Shown here piece by piece: positions 3,205 to 17,196 of a stretch of 20,716 nt of DNA. The first letter of the stretch is position 1, and every line of letters starts with the position of its first letter. The notes under the pieces were generated by a model. That model was given only the letters and a program-made list of their open reading frames with translations, was not told the DNA's origin and searched no databases. Source of the DNA: Chloroflexota bacterium (lineage in GTDB: Bacteria; Chloroflexota; Dehalococcoidia; UBA3495); NCBI GenBank assembly GCA_022563275.1, contig JADFNR010000059.1, forward strand, positions 1 through 20,716, written 5' to 3'. Made by a program: the position numbers and the translations under genes.

Positions 3205-4125
3205 CTAGTCGTCGGCCGCGACCGGTTCAGCGCCCCGGTTGTCCACGAAATCGGCGGCGCAAACGGAGGCGTTAAGCAGGTCCCAGCGCACCATCCAATT
3301 GTAAGTGTCTTCCAACTGCTCTTCGGTGTAGGGCCGTGGATGAGCGTAACGCAGGCGGGGCAGGTGGAAGTCGTCCACGGTGAGACCGCCCCATTCGGCA
3401 GCCGCCTCCACGAACTTGGGTTGTTCGATCAGGTAGTGCAAGAACCGTTTCTTGTCCGAGTTGATCAGGTCCACCGCCTTGGAGACAGCCCGGTTGATGG
3501 CGGCGAAGGTTTCGTCATCCATGTTGTCGCTGGCGTTCTCCGCGCCCAGGTAGTGGCCTTCGCAGACCGCCCGGCAGCCGTTCTTCTCAGCCAGGGCGAT
3601 CCAAGGCTCCATCAGCATGGCGGCATCGACCTCCCCGCTCATCATGGCCTCGAACCGGTAGCGGGGGCTTCCGTAATGCAGCAGATTGATCTTCTTCGCC
3701 GGAATGTAACCCTCCAGCAGCCGCAACGCGGTGTAATGGGAGCCGGCGTGGAACTGGACGGCGATGGGCTTATTGGCCAATGAACTGGGGTAGTAATGGT
3801 CGGATTCCGCCCTGACCATCAACGCCTGACTGGCCACGGCGGACCGCAGCCCAATCACCTTGGCGCCCTGTTTGCTCTCGTAGGCCCGACGGACCTGACC
3901 CTCTTCTCAAGCCCGGTAGATGGCGACTTGCTGGTCCTCGAAAGGCGTGTGGCCCAGGATCGGATCGACCTCATTCGGATCGGTGGTATGCTGGTCAACC
4001 TTCACGGCGATGGACTCGACAAACTCCATGTCGATGCCTTCTTCCGTGAAGAAGCCCTCATCCTTGGCCACGAACCAAGGGAGACTGAAAACCGCGCCGC
4101 TGGTTTCGCTCACTACCTTTTTCAT
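3205..4125 (-). CDS. NMT1/SsuA-like substrate-binding-fold protein with one in-frame TGA; candidate selenoprotein
   Basis: Two open segments, 4125-3910 and 3906-3205, lie in the same frame and are separated only by a TGA at 3909-3907. Read through, they give 306 residues with the unknown residue at position 73 (context IYRA-x-EEGQVRR). The N-terminal part (SLPWFVAKDEGFFTEEGID) and the later part (AVQFHAGSHYTALRLLEGYI, then AAMLMEPWIALAE) are typical of the NMT1/THI5/SsuA periplasmic-binding fold. The whole length is right for a complete family member. The start is the ATG at 4125 with AAGG 9 nt upstream; a GTG at 4131 is possible. No signal peptide or lipobox is present, and no permease or ATPase gene is near. 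No other lesion is visible, and a hairpin sits 10 nt after the TGA. Selenocysteine insertion is my preferred reading. A fresh nonsense mutation or a sequence error is the alternative. Confidence 0.7.
3882..3909 (-). promoter_or_regulatory. Candidate bacterial SECIS element following the in-frame TGA
   Basis: Reading the minus strand, TGA (3909-3907) is followed by 10 nt and then AGGTCC-GTC-GGGCCT (3896-3882). This is a 6-bp stem with one G-U pair and a loop starting G-U. In E. coli fdhF the SelB-binding upper stem-loop starts 11 nt after the UGA and shows G-U in its loop. The stem here is shorter and I see no clear bulged U, so the match is suggestive only. Confidence 0.45.
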
Positions 4126-4292: not shown

Positions 4293-4373
4293 CAGCCCGT
4301 ATCGAAGCCCAAGTGAAAACCCCGCGTGGAAGCCTGCCAATCAGGCCGTTCGCCAGCGGCGAAAGGAGTGCCC

Positions 4374-5453
4374 ATGGAATTCGGACTGTTCATGATGCCG
4401 CTGCATCCACCCCACCGCAGCTACGCTGATTCTTACGACCGCGACCTGGACCTGATTGTAAAAGCTGACCAACTTGGCTACACCGAAGCTTGGATCGGCG
4501 AGCACGTCACGGAACGGTGGGAGAACGCCCCCTGTCCCGACCTGCTCATCGCCAAAGCGTCGGCAATGACCGAGAACATCATCTTCGGCACCGGTGTCAC
4601 TCTGCTGGCCATTCACAACCCCGTTGACCTGGCCCACCGGCTGGCCATGCTGGACCACCTGTGCCGCGGCCGGTTCTACTGGGGCATCGGCACCCGGGCC
4701 ATACCCACGGACCTGGAGCTTTACGGCCTGGACGCCAGCGACCGTCAGGCCGTGGGAGAGCGCTCGATGGAGGTGCTGGATGTTGTGCTGAAGATCTGGG
4801 CGAACGAGGGCAAGTTTGAACATCACGGCAAGTATTTCGACATCTCAGCCCCCGAGTTGGACCCCGTCAAGGAACGGGGCCTGTACATGAAACCCTTCCA
4901 GCTCCCCCACCCGCCCATCAGCGCCGCCGCCACCACCATTCGCTCCGATTCGATGAAGAACGCGGGAGCCAATGGGTGGATACCAATGAGCAGCCCCACT
5001 CTATCGGTCCCCAACCTAGTCGGCCATTGGGAAGTGTTCTCAGACGGAGCAACCGGCGCCGGCCGCACCCCTGACCGGGGCCAATGGCGCATCGCCCGGG
5101 ACGTTTTGGTGGCGTCCACGGCCCAGGAGGCCAGGGAACGGGCCAACGCTGTCTTGGTGCGCAACTACCAGGTACACCAGCAGCCCAACCGCCAGGCCAG
5201 CCTGTTGGCCGGTTCCAAGACCGACCCCAACCTCCCCGACGAGGCCATCGACGTCGAATACCTGATGGACAACATCTGGATAGTGGGCGACCCCGAGGAG
5301 TGCGCCGGCCAGATCCGAAAGATCTACGGGGAGGTGGGCGGTTTCGGCACGCTGCTGACCGTCACCCAGGACCCCGACGACCACCAATGGCAGCATGAGT
5401 GCCTGGAACTTCTCAAAAATGACGTAGGCCCCAGGATCGCCGATTTGGGATAA
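4374..5453 (+). CDS. LLM-class flavin/F420-dependent oxidoreductase
   Basis: This is a 359-residue bacterial luciferase-like (TIM-barrel) oxidoreductase. Family signs are the N-terminal strand MEFGLFMMP, the segment ADQLGYTEAWIGEHVTE, GTGVTLLAIHNPVDLAHRLAMLD with the following GRFYWGIGTR, and the C-terminal IVGDPEECAGQIR. These proteins use FMNH2 or F420 for monooxygenation or hydride transfer. The sequence does not tell me which cofactor or substrate applies. The start at the ATG 4374 is supported by AAAGGAG 5 nt upstream; the frame is open a little further 5' but without a site. It has its own strong promoter and converges with a second LLM gene 133 bp away. The two LLM proteins differ clearly in sequence, so this is not a recent duplication. 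Confidence 0.9.
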   Translation: MEFGLFMMPLHPPHRSYADSYDRDLDLIVKADQLGYTEAWIGEHVTERWENAPCPDLLIAKASAMTENIIFGTGVTLLAIHNPVDLAHRLAMLDHLCRGRFYWGIGTRAIPTDLELYGLDASDRQAVGERSMEVLDVVLKIWANEGKFEHHGKYFDISAPELDPVKERGLYMKPFQLPHPPISAAATTIRSDSMKNAGANGWIPMSSPTLSVPNLVGHWEVFSDGATGAGRTPDRGQWRIARDVLVASTAQEARERANAVLVRNYQVHQQPNRQASLLAGSKTDPNLPDEAIDVEYLMDNIWIVGDPEECAGQIRKIYGEVGGFGTLLTVTQDPDDHQWQHECLELLKNDVGPRIADLG

Positions 5454-5586: not shown

Positions 5587-6783
5587 TTAGCCCAGGGGGC
5601 ACTCGGGCGCGGCCTGGGCGTCGCCGCTGCGGAACTCGGGTATCACGTGTTTGCCGAACATCTCGATGGACTTCATCACGTCCTTATGACCCACGGTTTC
5701 GGTGGCCATCAGGAACTGGAGCTCGTCCACGCCCGTGGCCTCATGGAGCTTGGCGCCTTTGATGCAGGCCTCCGGGTCTCCGGCCACGATTATGCCCCGG
5801 TCCGCCATGGTCTCGGCGTCGAATTCCTCCCAGATCTTCTGGGCCAAGGCCCCGCCGCCCGACAGGTCGAAATTGGTGGCCGAGTTGCCGTCGGCGCCGG
5901 ATGAGGTCTCCTTAACGTCGATGTACCGGGAGAAATTCTGCACCAGGTGTTCGGGGATGCCGCCCCACTGCTCCAGCAGACGCTGGTAGATGTCCTTCTG
6001 GTCTTGGACGTAGGGCCGCCCCGGTCCGAAGAAGGTCTTCAGTGATTGGGCCGATAGTTCCTGGGTAGCCTTGTTGTCCTCGCCGCACAGGCCGAAGCAG
6101 GAGTTCAGCCACTGGTTGTTGACGAAGGCGCCCACCGGATCGGCCTCTTTGATGGCGGTTTTGTATTTCTTTATCTCCGGCTCCAAGACCGAGGGCGCGT
6201 TCACGCCCAAAGCCATGACCCCGATACCCTTTTGAGCGGCGATCTCATAGGTTGACGACTGCAAGGCCGCCACCCAGATGGGTGGGTGAGGCTTCTGGTA
6301 TGGCTTGGGCAGCACCTGGCGGGGAGGCACGTTCCAGAACTTGCCCTCGAATTCGAAATAATCCGACTGCCAGATCTTGGGAATCATGCCCAGGGCCTCG
6401 TCCCACATCTCGCGTGTGTTGCGGGGGTCGATGCCCATGCCCAACTGTTCGTATGGGGCCGAGCGTCCGGTGCCGAACTCAACGCGGCCGTGGGACAGTT
6501 GGTCCACCATGGCCACCCGTTCCGCCACCCGGACCGGGTGGTGGTAGGGGAGGATCACCACGCCGAAGCCCAGGTGTATGCGCTTGGTCAGCCGGCTGAG
6601 CGCGCCGAATATGACCTCGGGACAGGGAGACTCGGAGAAGGTTGTCAGGAAGTGGTGTTCCACGAACCAGACGGAGTCGAACCCCATCTCGTCCGCCAGG
6701 ATGCACTGTTCGATGGTTTCCTCGATGACCGCATGGTCGTCGAGCATTGGCCGTTGCATCTCGTAGGCCAGAGAGAATTTCAT
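5587..6783 (-). CDS. LLM-class flavin-dependent oxidoreductase (second, divergent member)
   Basis: This is a 398-residue luciferase-like oxidoreductase. Motifs are MKFSLAYEMQRP at the start, ADEMGFDSVWFVEHHF, the barrel stretch HLGFGVVILPYHHPVRVAER, GRVEFGTGRS and, near the C-terminus, GIIVAGDPEACIKGAKL. The EHHF and HHPVR motifs place it nearer the alkanal monooxygenase-like LLM branch than its neighbour, although substrate and cofactor remain unknown. The start is the ATG at 6783 with GAGGG 7 nt upstream; 24 further open codons upstream lack a site. The C-terminal part is slightly longer than usual, with an insert around residues 290-320 (KETSSGADGNSATN). It is convergent with the other LLM gene and divergent from the toxin-antitoxin pair. 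Confidence 0.9.
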   Translation of the reverse strand: MKFSLAYEMQRPMLDDHAVIEETIEQCILADEMGFDSVWFVEHHFLTTFSESPCPEVIFGALSRLTKRIHLGFGVVILPYHHPVRVAERVAMVDQLSHGRVEFGTGRSAPYEQLGMGIDPRNTREMWDEALGMIPKIWQSDYFEFEGKFWNVPPRQVLPKPYQKPHPPIWVAALQSSTYEIAAQKGIGVMALGVNAPSVLEPEIKKYKTAIKEADPVGAFVNNQWLNSCFGLCGEDNKATQELSAQSLKTFFGPGRPYVQDQKDIYQRLLEQWGGIPEHLVQNFSRYIDVKETSSGADGNSATNFDLSGGGALAQKIWEEFDAETMADRGIIVAGDPEACIKGAKLHEATGVDELQFLMATETVGHKDVMKSIEMFGKHVIPEFRSGDAQAAPECPLG

Positions 6784-6908
6784 GGCATCGCCCTCGATAA
6801 AAATGGGAGTGAAGAGAGTCGCGCCAATTCTAATGGCCACGCCAGGGGAGGGCAAGCACGGCGGTCAAAAGCAGCTTGCTTTGGGCTGCTGGAATGACTG
6901 GGCAGCAA

Positions 6909-6956: not shown

Positions 6957-7235
6957 ATGGCTAATGTAGTTGGAAAGAAAGGTCAGGTCGTTATTACCAA
7001 GAAATTAAGGGACGAGCTGGGTGTGGAGCCCGGTTCGTTGACCTATCAGACGGTCGTAGATGGCCACCTAGAGATACATTTTTTCCCACCGGAGCACAAT
7101 CGGTCGTTGTTGGGGTCTCTGGCGCCTTACACGGATGTTGTGGTCCAGCCGGGTGAGGAGTGGCGCAAAGCGAAGGAAAAGGCCTGGGAGGCTGCGGCCA
7201 GCGAGAAAATGGAAAAGTTGGGCACTGGCTTGTGA
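6957..7235 (+). CDS. vapB: AbrB/VapB-family antitoxin
   Basis: This is a small 92-residue protein with an N-terminal SpoVT/AbrB swapped-hairpin DNA-binding domain (residues 1-45): VGKKGQVVITKKLRDELGVEPGS follows the family pattern of a strand, a G-Q turn, 'ITKKLR' and a Leu-Gly-Pro-Gly turn. The C-terminal half (about 55-92) is charged and helical with two Trp-containing segments (EEWRKAKEKAWEAA), expected to wrap the toxin. AGGA lies about 12 nt before the ATG. The stop TGA (7233-7235) overlaps the toxin start GTG (7232-7234) as GTGA, a classic translational-coupling arrangement. It is expected to bind and neutralise the PIN toxin and repress its own promoter. The VapB name is by pairing and fold, not by close sequence match. 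Confidence 0.8.
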   Translation: MANVVGKKGQVVITKKLRDELGVEPGSLTYQTVVDGHLEIHFFPPEHNRSLLGSLAPYTDVVVQPGEEWRKAKEKAWEAAASEKMEKLGTGL

Positions 7236-9899: not shown

Positions 9900-10322
9900 T
9901 CAAGAGATCTCTGGGGTAGGGGCGCCAACCTGCCGCATCAGTCCGATGGTGTCTCCGTAGACCAGACCGCTGGTTATCCGGCCATCTGAAATCTTGAATA
10001 ACGCGATCCCGCCATACTCAACTCTTTTGCCGGTAGGGGCGGCCCCGTACAGTTCTCCCAGATGAGTCCCGCTGTAGGTCAGCCGGGCCATCACCCCGTC
10101 GCCCTCGGCCAGCAATTCTTCGACATGGTTGTGAAAATCAGGGAAGGCGGCCCGGACCTGTGCCACGTATCCGCGAAATTTGCTTCTGCCAGCCACGGTC
10201 ACACCCAACGAACCCCGGAATTGGATGTCCGGGGCGATAATCTCGTCGATAACCGCGTCGTCCCACCGGTTCCAGAGGTCGTCGTAGTAGTGATGGATCA
10301 GTTTTTTGTTGTCGTCTAGCAT
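9900..10322 (-). CDS. SnoaL-like (ester cyclase / NTF2-fold) protein
   Basis: This is a 140-residue NTF2-like cone fold of the SnoaL/ester-cyclase type. The signs are the N-terminal helix NKKLIHHYYDDLWNRWD followed by IDEIIAPDIQFRGS, the segment AFPDFHNHVEELLAEGD with VMARLTYSGTHLGEL, and TGKRVEYGGIALFKISDGRI near the end. Members range from polyketide cyclases to enzymes of unknown substrate; the Asp-His of PDFHNH is the usual catalytic region. The start ATG lies 18 bp after the stop of the CoA-transferase gene, so the two are probably co-transcribed. The stop is TGA, an ordinary use of TGA as terminator in this genome. Substrate unknown. Confidence 0.82.
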   Translation of the reverse strand: MLDDNKKLIHHYYDDLWNRWDDAVIDEIIAPDIQFRGSLGVTVAGRSKFRGYVAQVRAAFPDFHNHVEELLAEGDGVMARLTYSGTHLGELYGAAPTGKRVEYGGIALFKISDGRITSGLVYGDTIGLMRQVGAPTPEIS

Positions 10323-12895: not shown

Positions 12896-15568
12896 ATGAC
12901 CAAATTACTTCAAACCGTGATGATATTTGCGGTGGTGATAGCGGTTGTGGGCGCGTTTACCGTCTACAGCAGCGGCCGCACGGTAGACTTTGCATTCGCC
13001 GACGGCCACGACGGCGGTGGAGAACCGCCGCCCGACGACTCGTATAGTGAGCCGCCGCCCGACGACTCATACAGCGAGCCGCCGCCCGACGACTCATACA
13101 GCGAGCCGCCGCCCGATGACTCATACAGTGAGCCGCCGCCCGATGACTCATACAGTGAGCCGCCGCCCGATGGTGAATACTATGAGCCTCCCCCGGAGGA
13201 CTGCGCCGACTGTACGTTCGATCAGCCGCCCCCCGATGGCGGGACCTACGACTGCACTGATTGTACGTTCGATCAGCCGCCCCCCGACGGTGAGTACTAC
13301 GACTGCGCCGACTGTACGTTTGACCAGCCGCCCCCTGACGGTGAGTATTTCGCGTCGGTGGACGGGTTTGATCCAACCGATTCAGAATTCTATTTCGAGC
13401 CGCCAACCGGCGAGTTCTTCTACGAGCCGCCCCCCGGAGATTTCTTCCCCGGAGACTTCGCTGATGGCGGCCCCTATCCAGACGGAGGAGATTTTCCGGA
13501 CCCGGGCTTCCAAGGGACGTTCTTCTTTGACGAACGGGGAGACTTCGTATTCGATGGCGTTCCGACGTTCGACGGTGGACCCGGATTCGACGGCGGTCCT
13601 GGTTTTGCCGACCCGGCCTTCGGAGGCCCCGGTTTCTTCCCCGACGGCGAATTCTATGGTTTCTTTGATCCAGGCGATTTCGCACCGGACCTGTTTTTAG
13701 ATACCTTCAGGCCGGACCAGTTCGCCGGTGACTTCGGTGACTTCTTCCTGGGCGGAGATTTCGAGCCTGGGGCGTTTGACCAGCTGTTCGACCCTGGCGA
13801 GTTCCGGCCGGACGAGTTCGGCAGCTTCTTCGCCTTTGAAGATTTCAAGCCTGGAGACTTCGGCGAATTCGCCACCGTTGGCGCCACCTACGTCGACTTT
13901 GGCGTGCACTTCGACCAGTTCTGGGGCGAGCGAGGCGAGGGCGCCCAGCAGGCCAGCGATTTCTTCGATGGCTTACTGCCTGGCGACTTCAGCTTCATCC
14001 CGCCGGAAGACCTGCTGGGCGAGCTGCAGAATTTGGATTACCAAGGTTTCCAGAACTTGGATGCGGGCTTCGTCGCCGACCTTTTCCAAAACGGCCTGGA
14101 AGGCCAGGAGTTCGACCTTAGAGGCGACCAATGGGCCGGCGCTTTCAGCAAGTTTGATGTGGAAGACATCCGGGGTTTCGACCAGGACTTCATCACGGGC
14201 GCGGTCCACGACTTTGCGCCTGAAGACTTCCTGGGCATCCCCGGCGACCAGGCGTTCGCCATGTTTGAGGCCACCTTCTTCGGCGCGCCCCCTTCGGGAG
14301 CGCCATTTGAAGGCGGACCTGAGGGAGCGGCGCCTCCGCCGTTCTTCGACCCCGGGTTCTTCGAGCAGCGCCTGGATGAGTTCCAAGGCCAGATCGGAGG
14401 GTTCCTGGGCGCCATGGGGGCGGAGAACTTCGATAAGATCGAAGACAGCCAATTGGTGGACATGTTCGGGAAGATCGACTTCCTCGCCCCGGACTTTGAC
14501 CGCACCGTATTGGGCGGAGAAGACCTGGGCGGCATCTTTGCTTCGCTGGAGCATGAGTCGCTGGCCGCCATGGGCCAGGACCAGATCATGGCGGCCATCG
14601 GCGGTCTGAACGCCAACGACTTCCGCGGTTGGGATCCCGGCGCGGCCTTCAACGTGTTCGACAATATCGATTTCGACCAATCGAAGGGCCTGGAACACAT
14701 GGGTGGCCTGGTCGGCGCCATGGGCCCGGACCAGTTCCAAAACATCGAAGGCGACAAGCTGTTGGGCTTGTTTGACTCCTTCTCCTTTGGCGGACCCGGG
14801 TTCGACCTGGGTTCGTCCGGCATGGACCAGGACGATATCGCCGCCATGATGGGCGCCATGGACTTCGAGCACATCTCGGAGTTGGGCAACGAGGGCATCG
14901 TTGGCGCTCTCCAGCACCTGGACAACAAAGCCATGGGAGCTTGGGATGGCAGCACGGCTTTCGATATATTCTCCACCATCGGCTTCGAAGAAGCCCTGGG
15001 CATCGACCAGCTAGAAGGCATCGTAGCCAACTTTGCCGGGGAGCACATTCAACAACTGGGCGGCAATCTGGGCAGCCTGCTGGGAAGCCTGGACTTCCAG
15101 AACAACGGCGACATCCTCCGGGATTTCTCCTTTGACACCTTGGGAGTCCTTTCCCCAGAGGACTTCCAGGCCCTGGGGAACCAGCAACTGGCGGACCTGG
15201 CCAACAACATCGGCGGTGAAGGAATCACCGGCTTGGACGCCGGACAACTCTACGCCTTTGTCGAGAATATCAAGTCTGACTTCTTCGGGGATTTCGATCC
15301 TTCAGTGGTGGGCGGCATGTTCGCCGGACTGGACAACGACCAGATCGGTGGATTTGACCATGAAACCATGAAGGCGGCCCTGGAAGCCGCCGGCGCCGAC
15401 CTTCTTGGCGGCCTGGGCGACTTCGGTTCCATCGCCGGCGCCAGCACCGCTTTCGACGAATTGGCCAACCTGGCCGATCTCGGGGCGGCGCTGGAGCAAG
15501 ACGGCGCCTCCGTAATACAAGACGGGGCGTTCATCTTCTTCGGCGGAAACCTGTTTGGTTCCAACTAA
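12896..15568 (+). CDS. Secreted 890-residue acidic Phe-rich repeat protein, novel
   Basis: The protein begins with a signal-like hydrophobic segment (about 8-24) and a possible AFA cleavage site near residue 35. Five EPPPDDSYS repeats follow (43-87) plus a variant (88-96). Three 17-residue DCxDCTFDQPPPDG units (102-152) hold all six cysteines of the protein. A zone rich in Phe, Asp, Gly and Pro with PGDF/PDEF/PGEF motifs comes next (about 155-330). The C-terminal half (about 372-890) is made of degenerate repeats of about 100 residues. By hand count Phe is about 113 of 890 (13%) and Lys only about ten, so the protein is strongly acidic. AAGGAA lies just before the ATG, and a strong terminator follows the stop. 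I recognise no catalytic domain. A surface filament, adhesin, S-layer-like or matrix protein, perhaps metal-binding, is an inference. Confidence 0.85.
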   Translation: MTKLLQTVMIFAVVIAVVGAFTVYSSGRTVDFAFADGHDGGGEPPPDDSYSEPPPDDSYSEPPPDDSYSEPPPDDSYSEPPPDDSYSEPPPDGEYYEPPPEDCADCTFDQPPPDGGTYDCTDCTFDQPPPDGEYYDCADCTFDQPPPDGEYFASVDGFDPTDSEFYFEPPTGEFFYEPPPGDFFPGDFADGGPYPDGGDFPDPGFQGTFFFDERGDFVFDGVPTFDGGPGFDGGPGFADPAFGGPGFFPDGEFYGFFDPGDFAPDLFLDTFRPDQFAGDFGDFFLGGDFEPGAFDQLFDPGEFRPDEFGSFFAFEDFKPGDFGEFATVGATYVDFGVHFDQFWGERGEGAQQASDFFDGLLPGDFSFIPPEDLLGELQNLDYQGFQNLDAGFVADLFQNGLEGQEFDLRGDQWAGAFSKFDVEDIRGFDQDFITGAVHDFAPEDFLGIPGDQAFAMFEATFFGAPPSGAPFEGGPEGAAPPPFFDPGFFEQRLDEFQGQIGGFLGAMGAENFDKIEDSQLVDMFGKIDFLAPDFDRTVLGGEDLGGIFASLEHESLAAMGQDQIMAAIGGLNANDFRGWDPGAAFNVFDNIDFDQSKGLEHMGGLVGAMGPDQFQNIEGDKLLGLFDSFSFGGPGFDLGSSGMDQDDIAAMMGAMDFEHISELGNEGIVGALQHLDNKAMGAWDGSTAFDIFSTIGFEEALGIDQLEGIVANFAGEHIQQLGGNLGSLLGSLDFQNNGDILRDFSFDTLGVLSPEDFQALGNQQLADLANNIGGEGITGLDAGQLYAFVENIKSDFFGDFDPSVVGGMFAGLDNDQIGGFDHETMKAALEAAGADLLGGLGDFGSIAGASTAFDELANLADLGAALEQDGASVIQDGAFIFFGGNLFGSN
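13022..13183 (+). repeat. 27-bp in-frame tandem repeat (EPPPDDSYS)
   Basis: Five 27-bp units start at 13022, 13049, 13076, 13103 and 13130; a sixth, diverged unit runs 13157-13183 (EPPPDGEYY). The first five differ only at synonymous sites (GAC/GAT, TCG/TCA, AGC/AGT, TAT/TAC, GAA/GAG), which indicates selection for the peptide after duplication. Confidence 0.9.
13199..13351 (+). repeat. 51-bp in-frame tandem repeat with DCxDC motifs
   Basis: Three 51-bp units (13199-13249, 13250-13300, 13301-13351) encode D-C-A/T-D-C-T-F-D-Q-P-P-P-D-G plus three variable residues. Each contributes one CxxC pair flanked by Asp. Confidence 0.88.
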
Positions 15569-16599: not shown

Positions 16600-17196
16600 A
16601 TGTGTTGGCCTCCGTCGTGCGATCCAGTGATCGGTCCGGTCAAGGAACCCGAGAGATGGGTGCTGATCAACGCCAGCCCCGAGGCGGTGTTCGCCTATCT
16701 GGCCGATCTGCCGCGTCACGGTGAGTGGGACGCCCACACAGGGTTCAGGGTGGTGCGGACATCGGATGGACCGGCAGTGGAGGGTTCATTCTGTGAGAGA
16801 GAACGGTTTGAGATATTTCAAGCGCCCACCCTGCGGAGTGGCGGCCTCTCCACCCAGGTCTCCTGGGTCAAGAGCCTCACCGTCACGGGCTGCGAACCCA
16901 ATCGGAGTATCGACTTCGAGACCAAGGACATCTACAACGGCCTGTCCATCGGTTCGGAATCCATCTCCTTCAGATTGGTCCCTGAAGGCACCGGCACCGT
17001 GCTGATGATGGCCAACAAAAGGAGCGCCCACATGCCGGGACCCTTTTACGTGGTTAAAGTGGCCACGGAATTTGTCCAAGACTTGGCCTCACGGCTATTT
17101 ATTGGCTGGTTGTTTCGAGTATTTCCCCGCCTGCGCACCAACGGTCAGTTGTCCCGCATCAAGAAGGTAATGGAGCAGGGTCGGACTACCCCTTGA
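16600..17196 (+). CDS. SRPBCC (START/polyketide cyclase-like) protein
   Basis: This is a 198-residue protein with the SRPBCC helix-grip fold: WVLINASPEAVFAYLADLPRHGEWD is the classic first strand and helix, followed by strands ending in TVTGCEPNRSIDFETK and SISFRLVPEGTGTVLMMA. A basic, aromatic C-terminal stretch (LFIGWLFRVFPRLR) may pack on the hydrophobic pocket or a membrane. These proteins bind small hydrophobic ligands; a specific ligand or reaction cannot be told. The ATG at 16600 has no clear ribosome site; a GTG at 16627 is an alternative start that would still keep the whole domain. It follows the lipoprotein gene by 24 bp and ends with TGA, 31 bp from the convergent regulator gene. 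Confidence 0.82.
   Translation: MCWPPSCDPVIGPVKEPERWVLINASPEAVFAYLADLPRHGEWDAHTGFRVVRTSDGPAVEGSFCERERFEIFQAPTLRSGGLSTQVSWVKSLTVTGCEPNRSIDFETKDIYNGLSIGSESISFRLVPEGTGTVLMMANKRSAHMPGPFYVVKVATEFVQDLASRLFIGWLFRVFPRLRTNGQLSRIKKVMEQGRTTP

Follow-up and report, generated by a model that had tools for sequence, protein, structure and literature searches.

A solute-binding-fold protein of marine SAR202-type bacteria appears to carry selenocysteine where its relatives have cysteine

Selenoproteins of the solute-binding protein (SBP) type are already represented by SaoX (NF040735) and SaoB (NF040727), whose Sec motifs are given as UxP and CUxxT in the accessible part of a 2026 review (PMC13188914). The protein described here, which is encoded in a window of 20,716 nucleotides (the whole stretch of DNA that was analysed), is also of the SBP type, but its Sec motif reads AUEEG instead, and it gave no match to the SaoX and SaoB NCBIfam models at E up to 1; a Cys homologue (P0030) reached 21.8 bits of 300 against the SaoX model. 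The family is absent from the table of 119 families and subfamilies in that review, as far as the review was accessible (PMC13188914), and was not found in print in the accessible parts of the literature, subscription papers, preprints and supplements aside (PMC12013277, PMC9312934, PMC2398784, PMC5029168, PMC1088965, PMC1794560, PMC6100217). As to other described proteins, SsuA and TauA, which share about 17% identity with the window protein, are periplasmic sulfonate-binding proteins, whereas the window protein lacks room for a signal peptide, and the HMP-P synthase Thi5, the desulfinase DszB and MqnD share 12-17% identity with it, Sec73 falling near the Thi5 His66 segment in a weak alignment only (hhalign probability 19%). 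The closest described proteins are Cys forms of the same family, annotated as 'ABC transporter substrate-binding protein' (PF09084/PF13379), which are 47-51% identical to the window protein over its whole length (38 in the alignment) and have Cys in the Sec column, but which carry Trp at +2, where Sec forms carry Glu or Cys.

The gene lies on the minus strand at positions 3205-4125. The first-pass annotation had described two intact segments split by a single TGA, and these indeed form one frame of 306 residues with an NMT1/SsuA-like fold when the TGA is counted as one residue: 72 N-terminal residues (3910-4125), the TGA at codon 73 (3907-3909), 233 further residues and a final TAG stop, the frame being otherwise intact. 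Across the TGA the sequence reads IYRA-x-EEGQVRRAYES, exactly as had been proposed, and TGA is a genuine stop for at least three neighbours, as had also been claimed: it ends the ORFs at 6957-7235, 9900-10322 and 16600-17196. Since TGA thus terminates 3 of the 16 main ORFs of the window, a genome-wide reassignment of this codon is unlikely. The gene starts with an ATG preceded, 9 codons upstream, by an in-frame TAG, so that a signal peptide would not fit. The N-terminal 72 residues are missing from standard annotation, and a 217-aa ORF with an internal GTG start (3205-3858, minus strand) represents the type of fragment that gene callers report.

A protein search returned 599 relatives with E-values up to 0.001, and the column of the TGA was counted in the best 120 of these. 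It was occupied by Cys in all 44 full-length proteins (43 with CEWG and 1 with CHWG), and six distant paralogues (36-39% identity) all had CEWG as well, three of them coming from a genome (G001) that also has the TGA form. The conserved Cys in a CEWG-like motif, which the first-pass annotation had named, was therefore correct. The remaining 76 of these 120 matches begin downstream of codon 73, 72 of them being 203-219 aa long and the others 178, 179, 186 and 286 aa. At the DNA level, we scanned 250 genomes in the order of G001, in 46 of which a relative was found with an E-value of 1e-30 or less: exactly one TGA was found in 35 matches from 30 genomes, with 62-91% identity to the window protein, and five genomes each had two TGA-form paralogues. 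Counting the window gene and these 35 genes from other assemblies, codon 73 is TGA, with EEGQVRRAYES following it, in all 36 close genes. Because so many other assemblies carry the identical TGA, a sequencing read error at this codon is very unlikely. The column, when inspected across homologues, held Cys or, in the closest relatives, TGA, and we saw none of the residues (Arg, Trp or Gln) that had been put forward as marks of a nonsense mutation.

These observations bear on two readings in which the TGA would not encode selenocysteine. If the gene were a decaying pseudogene with a nonsense TGA, this TGA would hardly be common to all the close genes with the frame intact after it, nor would one expect the synonymous constraint found directly past it (see below) or the Cys at the same column elsewhere. 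One relative (L004/L072, from the MAG UBA2158, G004) does have TAA at the Sec codon together with an in-frame internal deletion, its hairpin stretch being intact, and its sequence looks like the decay of one copy; for the window gene, we consider decay extremely improbable, and for the whole family the comparative data already argue against it. The UGA could also be a true stop followed by a restart at the internal GTG, yielding two separate proteins, and the top 29 database matches (among the best 120 of 599) are in fact fragments of 204-219 aa that all start past the TGA column. Yet the first residue of such fragments varies among relatives, and the product would miss strands 2-8, 31-37 and 69-72 of the first lobe in the structural model, so that a restart has next to no credibility in our eyes. 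On the selenocysteine reading, the family escapes annotation and the SBP-fold protein appears in the databases as a truncated fragment because its selenocysteine codon is a TGA. A few matches of the 250-genome scan were atypical: a contig-edge fragment (L081, G212) has a second in-frame TGA about seven codons upstream of the Sec codon, which may be a second Sec codon or else reflect a mutation or an error; G182 gave only a partial match beginning after the TGA column; and five low-scoring matches show TAG or TAA somewhere, one of which (L145) turned out to be CEWG when re-read.

The Sec and Cys forms also differ at position 75, which is Trp in all 44 full-length Cys matches (best 120 of 599), Glu in 37 of 37 Sec rows and Cys in one further TGA form (L136, described below). 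Judging from these alignments, the Sec/Cys state and residue 75, two residues past Sec, apparently differ together, and such Cys and Sec versions with a matched difference two residues away would provide a natural test of what selenium adds. Besides position 73, R80, H126, H130 and Y131 are invariant across 52 sequences.

Downstream of the TGA, we identified a SECIS-like hairpin, AGGUCC-GUC-GGGCCU (3882-3896, minus strand), with a 6-bp stem and a 3-nt GUC loop that starts with G and lies 16 nt past the UGA. According to the Fig. 2 legend of the partly accessible review (PMC13188914), bSECIS elements have a loop of 3-9 nt, a stem of 4-16 bp, 16-37 nt between UGA and loop and a G within the first two loop positions; the window hairpin agrees with these published rules on loop, stem, G position and UGA spacing. 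The corresponding codons 77-81 (CAG GTC CGT CGG GCC) do not vary among all 36 TGA genes, while gene-wide synonymous diversity is 0.425, and only 7 of the 110 degenerate codons with an invariant residue use a single codon, 5 of these 7 being codons 77-81. Five of six Cys homologues compared at the DNA level (L131, L134, L141, L142 and L143) differ in the codons of the hairpin stretch. The sixth, on an alphaproteobacterial Mesorhizobium plasmid (L130), reads CAG ATC CGT CGG GCC and thus has 4 of the 5 codons in common with the Sec forms, showing that part of the hairpin codon choice also occurs without Sec; this overlap after its TGC may be due to chance or may be the trace of an old SECIS. The minimum free energy (MFE) of the window hairpin, -8.6 kcal/mol, falls within the published bSECIS limit, given as -7.5 kcal/mol or below in the accessible text, but this energy is unremarkable (z -0.32, with 73 of 200 shuffles equally stable) and gives the hairpin no support. 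With Rfam, the window gave two weak matches (E up to 1), both distant from the gene and far below gathering scores.

Genes of the selenocysteine machinery were searched for in the genomes of the relatives, G272 (which carries L136) being outside all counts and G328 outside the SelA count. In the four nearest genomes, SelA, SelD and a tRNA-Sec with a UCA anticodon, to which the first-pass annotation had pointed along with SelB, were over the cut-off in all four, whereas SelB was over the cut-off in three, the fourth having a weak C-terminal piece only. Among the TGA genomes, SelA was found in 28 of 30 (all but G203 and G218), tRNA-Sec in 26 of 31 (all but G183, G189, G204, G207 and G218) and SelB in 26 of 31 (all but G003, G203, G204, G207 and G218), so that G218, a 1.9 Mb assembly, is the only TGA genome with none of the three. 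The presence of SelA does not discriminate, since 201 of the 250 genomes of the order have it; tRNA-Sec and SelB searches with the same thresholds were positive in 2 of 14 control genomes, which were E. coli and M. jannaschii. An in-frame TGA also occurs in the SelD gene of each of the four nearest genomes, and after it comes a hairpin of 7-8 bp whose loop reads GUC or GUU. In G001, SelD was matched as two adjacent pieces with an ambiguous base (L062-L063), probably an assembly fault, and two tRNA-Sec genes occur in this one assembly (C87 and C33; L008 and L009), perhaps reflecting a mixed bin.

Since readthrough restores a full protein, one might also imagine that this lineage suppresses UGA or now reads it as one of the standard amino acids. 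Against this stand the TGA-terminated ORFs of the window, the tRNA-Sec with UCA anticodon that relatives carry and a homologue column that is Cys and not Trp, and we give reassignment or suppression only the slightest chance. With its conserved TGA, Cys column, constrained hairpin and sel genes in relatives, the candidate selenoprotein of the first-pass annotation is well supported, and comparative sequence data make it very probable that the gene encodes a selenoprotein of a genuine new bacterial family. SelB and Sec-tRNA would bind the hairpin 16 nt downstream and insert Sec at UGA 73. If true, this enlarges by one family the selenoproteome of bacteria that are uncultured and largely marine.

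To see how far the Sec form extends, we searched for the TGA-hairpin pattern, allowing up to 3 mismatches, in 393 genomes of the class, and found matches in G001 and in G328, which belongs to another order; the other six of the 7 genomes sampled from that order yielded no relative with an E-value of 1e-60 or less. The G328 protein (L083) is 48% identical to the window protein and reads UEEGQVRRA. At the fifth pair of its hairpin, U-A replaces C-G, a compensatory change in which both changes are synonymous, although the covariation rests on this one row and was matched by 32 of 500 shuffles; its MFE is only -6.5 kcal/mol, against the limit of -7.5, and its MFE fold differs from the proposed hairpin. 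Profile searches, in which at most 5-6 candidates were scored per genome, gave a match at E up to 1e-70 in at least 8 of the 393 genomes of the class, G272 among them, and a match in at least 4 of 400 genomes of a phylum sample, where G001 itself was the sole TGA form among the scored candidates. The G272 protein (L136), from outside both orders' lists, shares 37% identity with the window protein. Its gene has a TGA at the same column, followed 24 nt later by a SECIS-like hairpin, CGGGCU-CGUGUU-AGCCCG, that is unlike the window hairpin; of the stretches tried, the longest alone gave this hairpin as its MFE fold.

In a tree of 74 rows, from which three Haloterrigena rows (branches 6-10) had been dropped and in which 22 near-identical Sec and Cys rows had been thinned, three changes of the Sec label are required, L083 is paired with the Cys protein P0060 and a single Sec clade is rejected (AU p 0.0007), a test to be read with the caveat that the long branches of L136 and L137 meet in this tree. 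An earlier tree of 93 rows, built before L136 was known, had two changes of the Sec label. On these trees and alignments, Sec/Cys exchange is taken to have occurred more than once, accompanied by loss of the Trp at +2.

The window protein has a type II SBP fold that is closest to SsuA by Z; four weak profile hits were obtained in the PDB, where a single-sequence search returned no homologue at E up to 0.01. In the structural model, strand 1 begins at residue 2, and Sec73 sits where strand 69-72 gives way to helix 74-83, a junction that we take, from the known architecture of the fold, to form the wall of the interlobe cleft. By inspection, we found no signal peptide or lipobox, with the TAG 9 codons before the ATG and strand 1 from residue 2. 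Lacking space for a signal peptide, the protein is probably not a transport protein; the substrate-binding-like assignment of the first-pass annotation consequently stands for the fold, while a transport role is improbable.

We propose that the product would be a cytoplasmic type II solute-binding-fold protein and an enzyme of the Thi5/DszB/MqnD kind, in which the selenol (a thiol in Cys forms) would act on a small organic ligand, either as a nucleophile or by donating a proton. The selenoprotein is probably a cytoplasmic enzyme with its selenol in the ligand cleft; we lean, without great assurance, towards an enzymatic role with catalytic use of Sec, and any particular reaction is doubtful. 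Sec catalysis on an SBP fold is not described in the accessible parts of the literature examined. As a tentative suggestion, the family could represent a new selenoenzyme class on this fold: a cytoplasmic lyase type of Dehalococcoidia, not thioredoxin-like and with no Mo/W/Ni ligand, in which Cys and Sec were exchanged more than once, Sec forms lack the Trp at +2 and selenium would accelerate the transfer of a proton or group on a compound of the organosulfur or carboxylate type.

Sec could also be real in a protein that is a soluble ligand sensor or binder (of a metal, metalloid or electrophile, for example), where it would hold the ligand with no catalysis. The proximity of the fold to SsuA by Z is consistent with this, as are the binding or transport names that the SBP-type selenoproteins SaoX, SaoB and BtuF bear in the accessible table of the review (PMC13188914). 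Family 5 solute-binding proteins come after L083 and next to a paralogue locus (L100), the latter also adjoining two ABC ATPase genes of the oligopeptide type. But the lack of room for a signal peptide argues against a sensor or binder, the window ORFs scanned contain no ABC permease or ATPase, and the invariant R80, H126, H130 and Y131 would suit an active site, even if they could bind a ligand too; we regard a non-catalytic role as conceivable, if on the unlikely side.

Two luciferase-like monooxygenase genes adjoin the selenoprotein gene (4326-5453, plus strand, and 5587-6855, minus strand). When 22 loci were compared (the window, L001, L002, L004 and L084-L101), no partner was conserved throughout and most other neighbours were without annotation; luciferase-like monooxygenase genes lie near at least 10 of the 22 (L088 included), many of which are close relatives with shared synteny. 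A pathway built on these neighbours was rejected given this synteny among close relatives and the lack of a partner in all loci, and the reaction is without contextual support because the gene neighbours are not conserved. Cys homologues are found in 14 plasmid records, and their contexts are mixed in the four viewed: a Haloterrigena plasmid has three tandem genes named substrate-binding protein and no ABC genes, and a Geminicoccaceae plasmid has a transporter with its own SBP near the Cys homologue. Elsewhere in the window, an ORF with no Pfam or NCBIfam match (12896-15568, plus strand) encodes an 890-aa protein with PPPDDSYSE-type and GDF-rich repeats.
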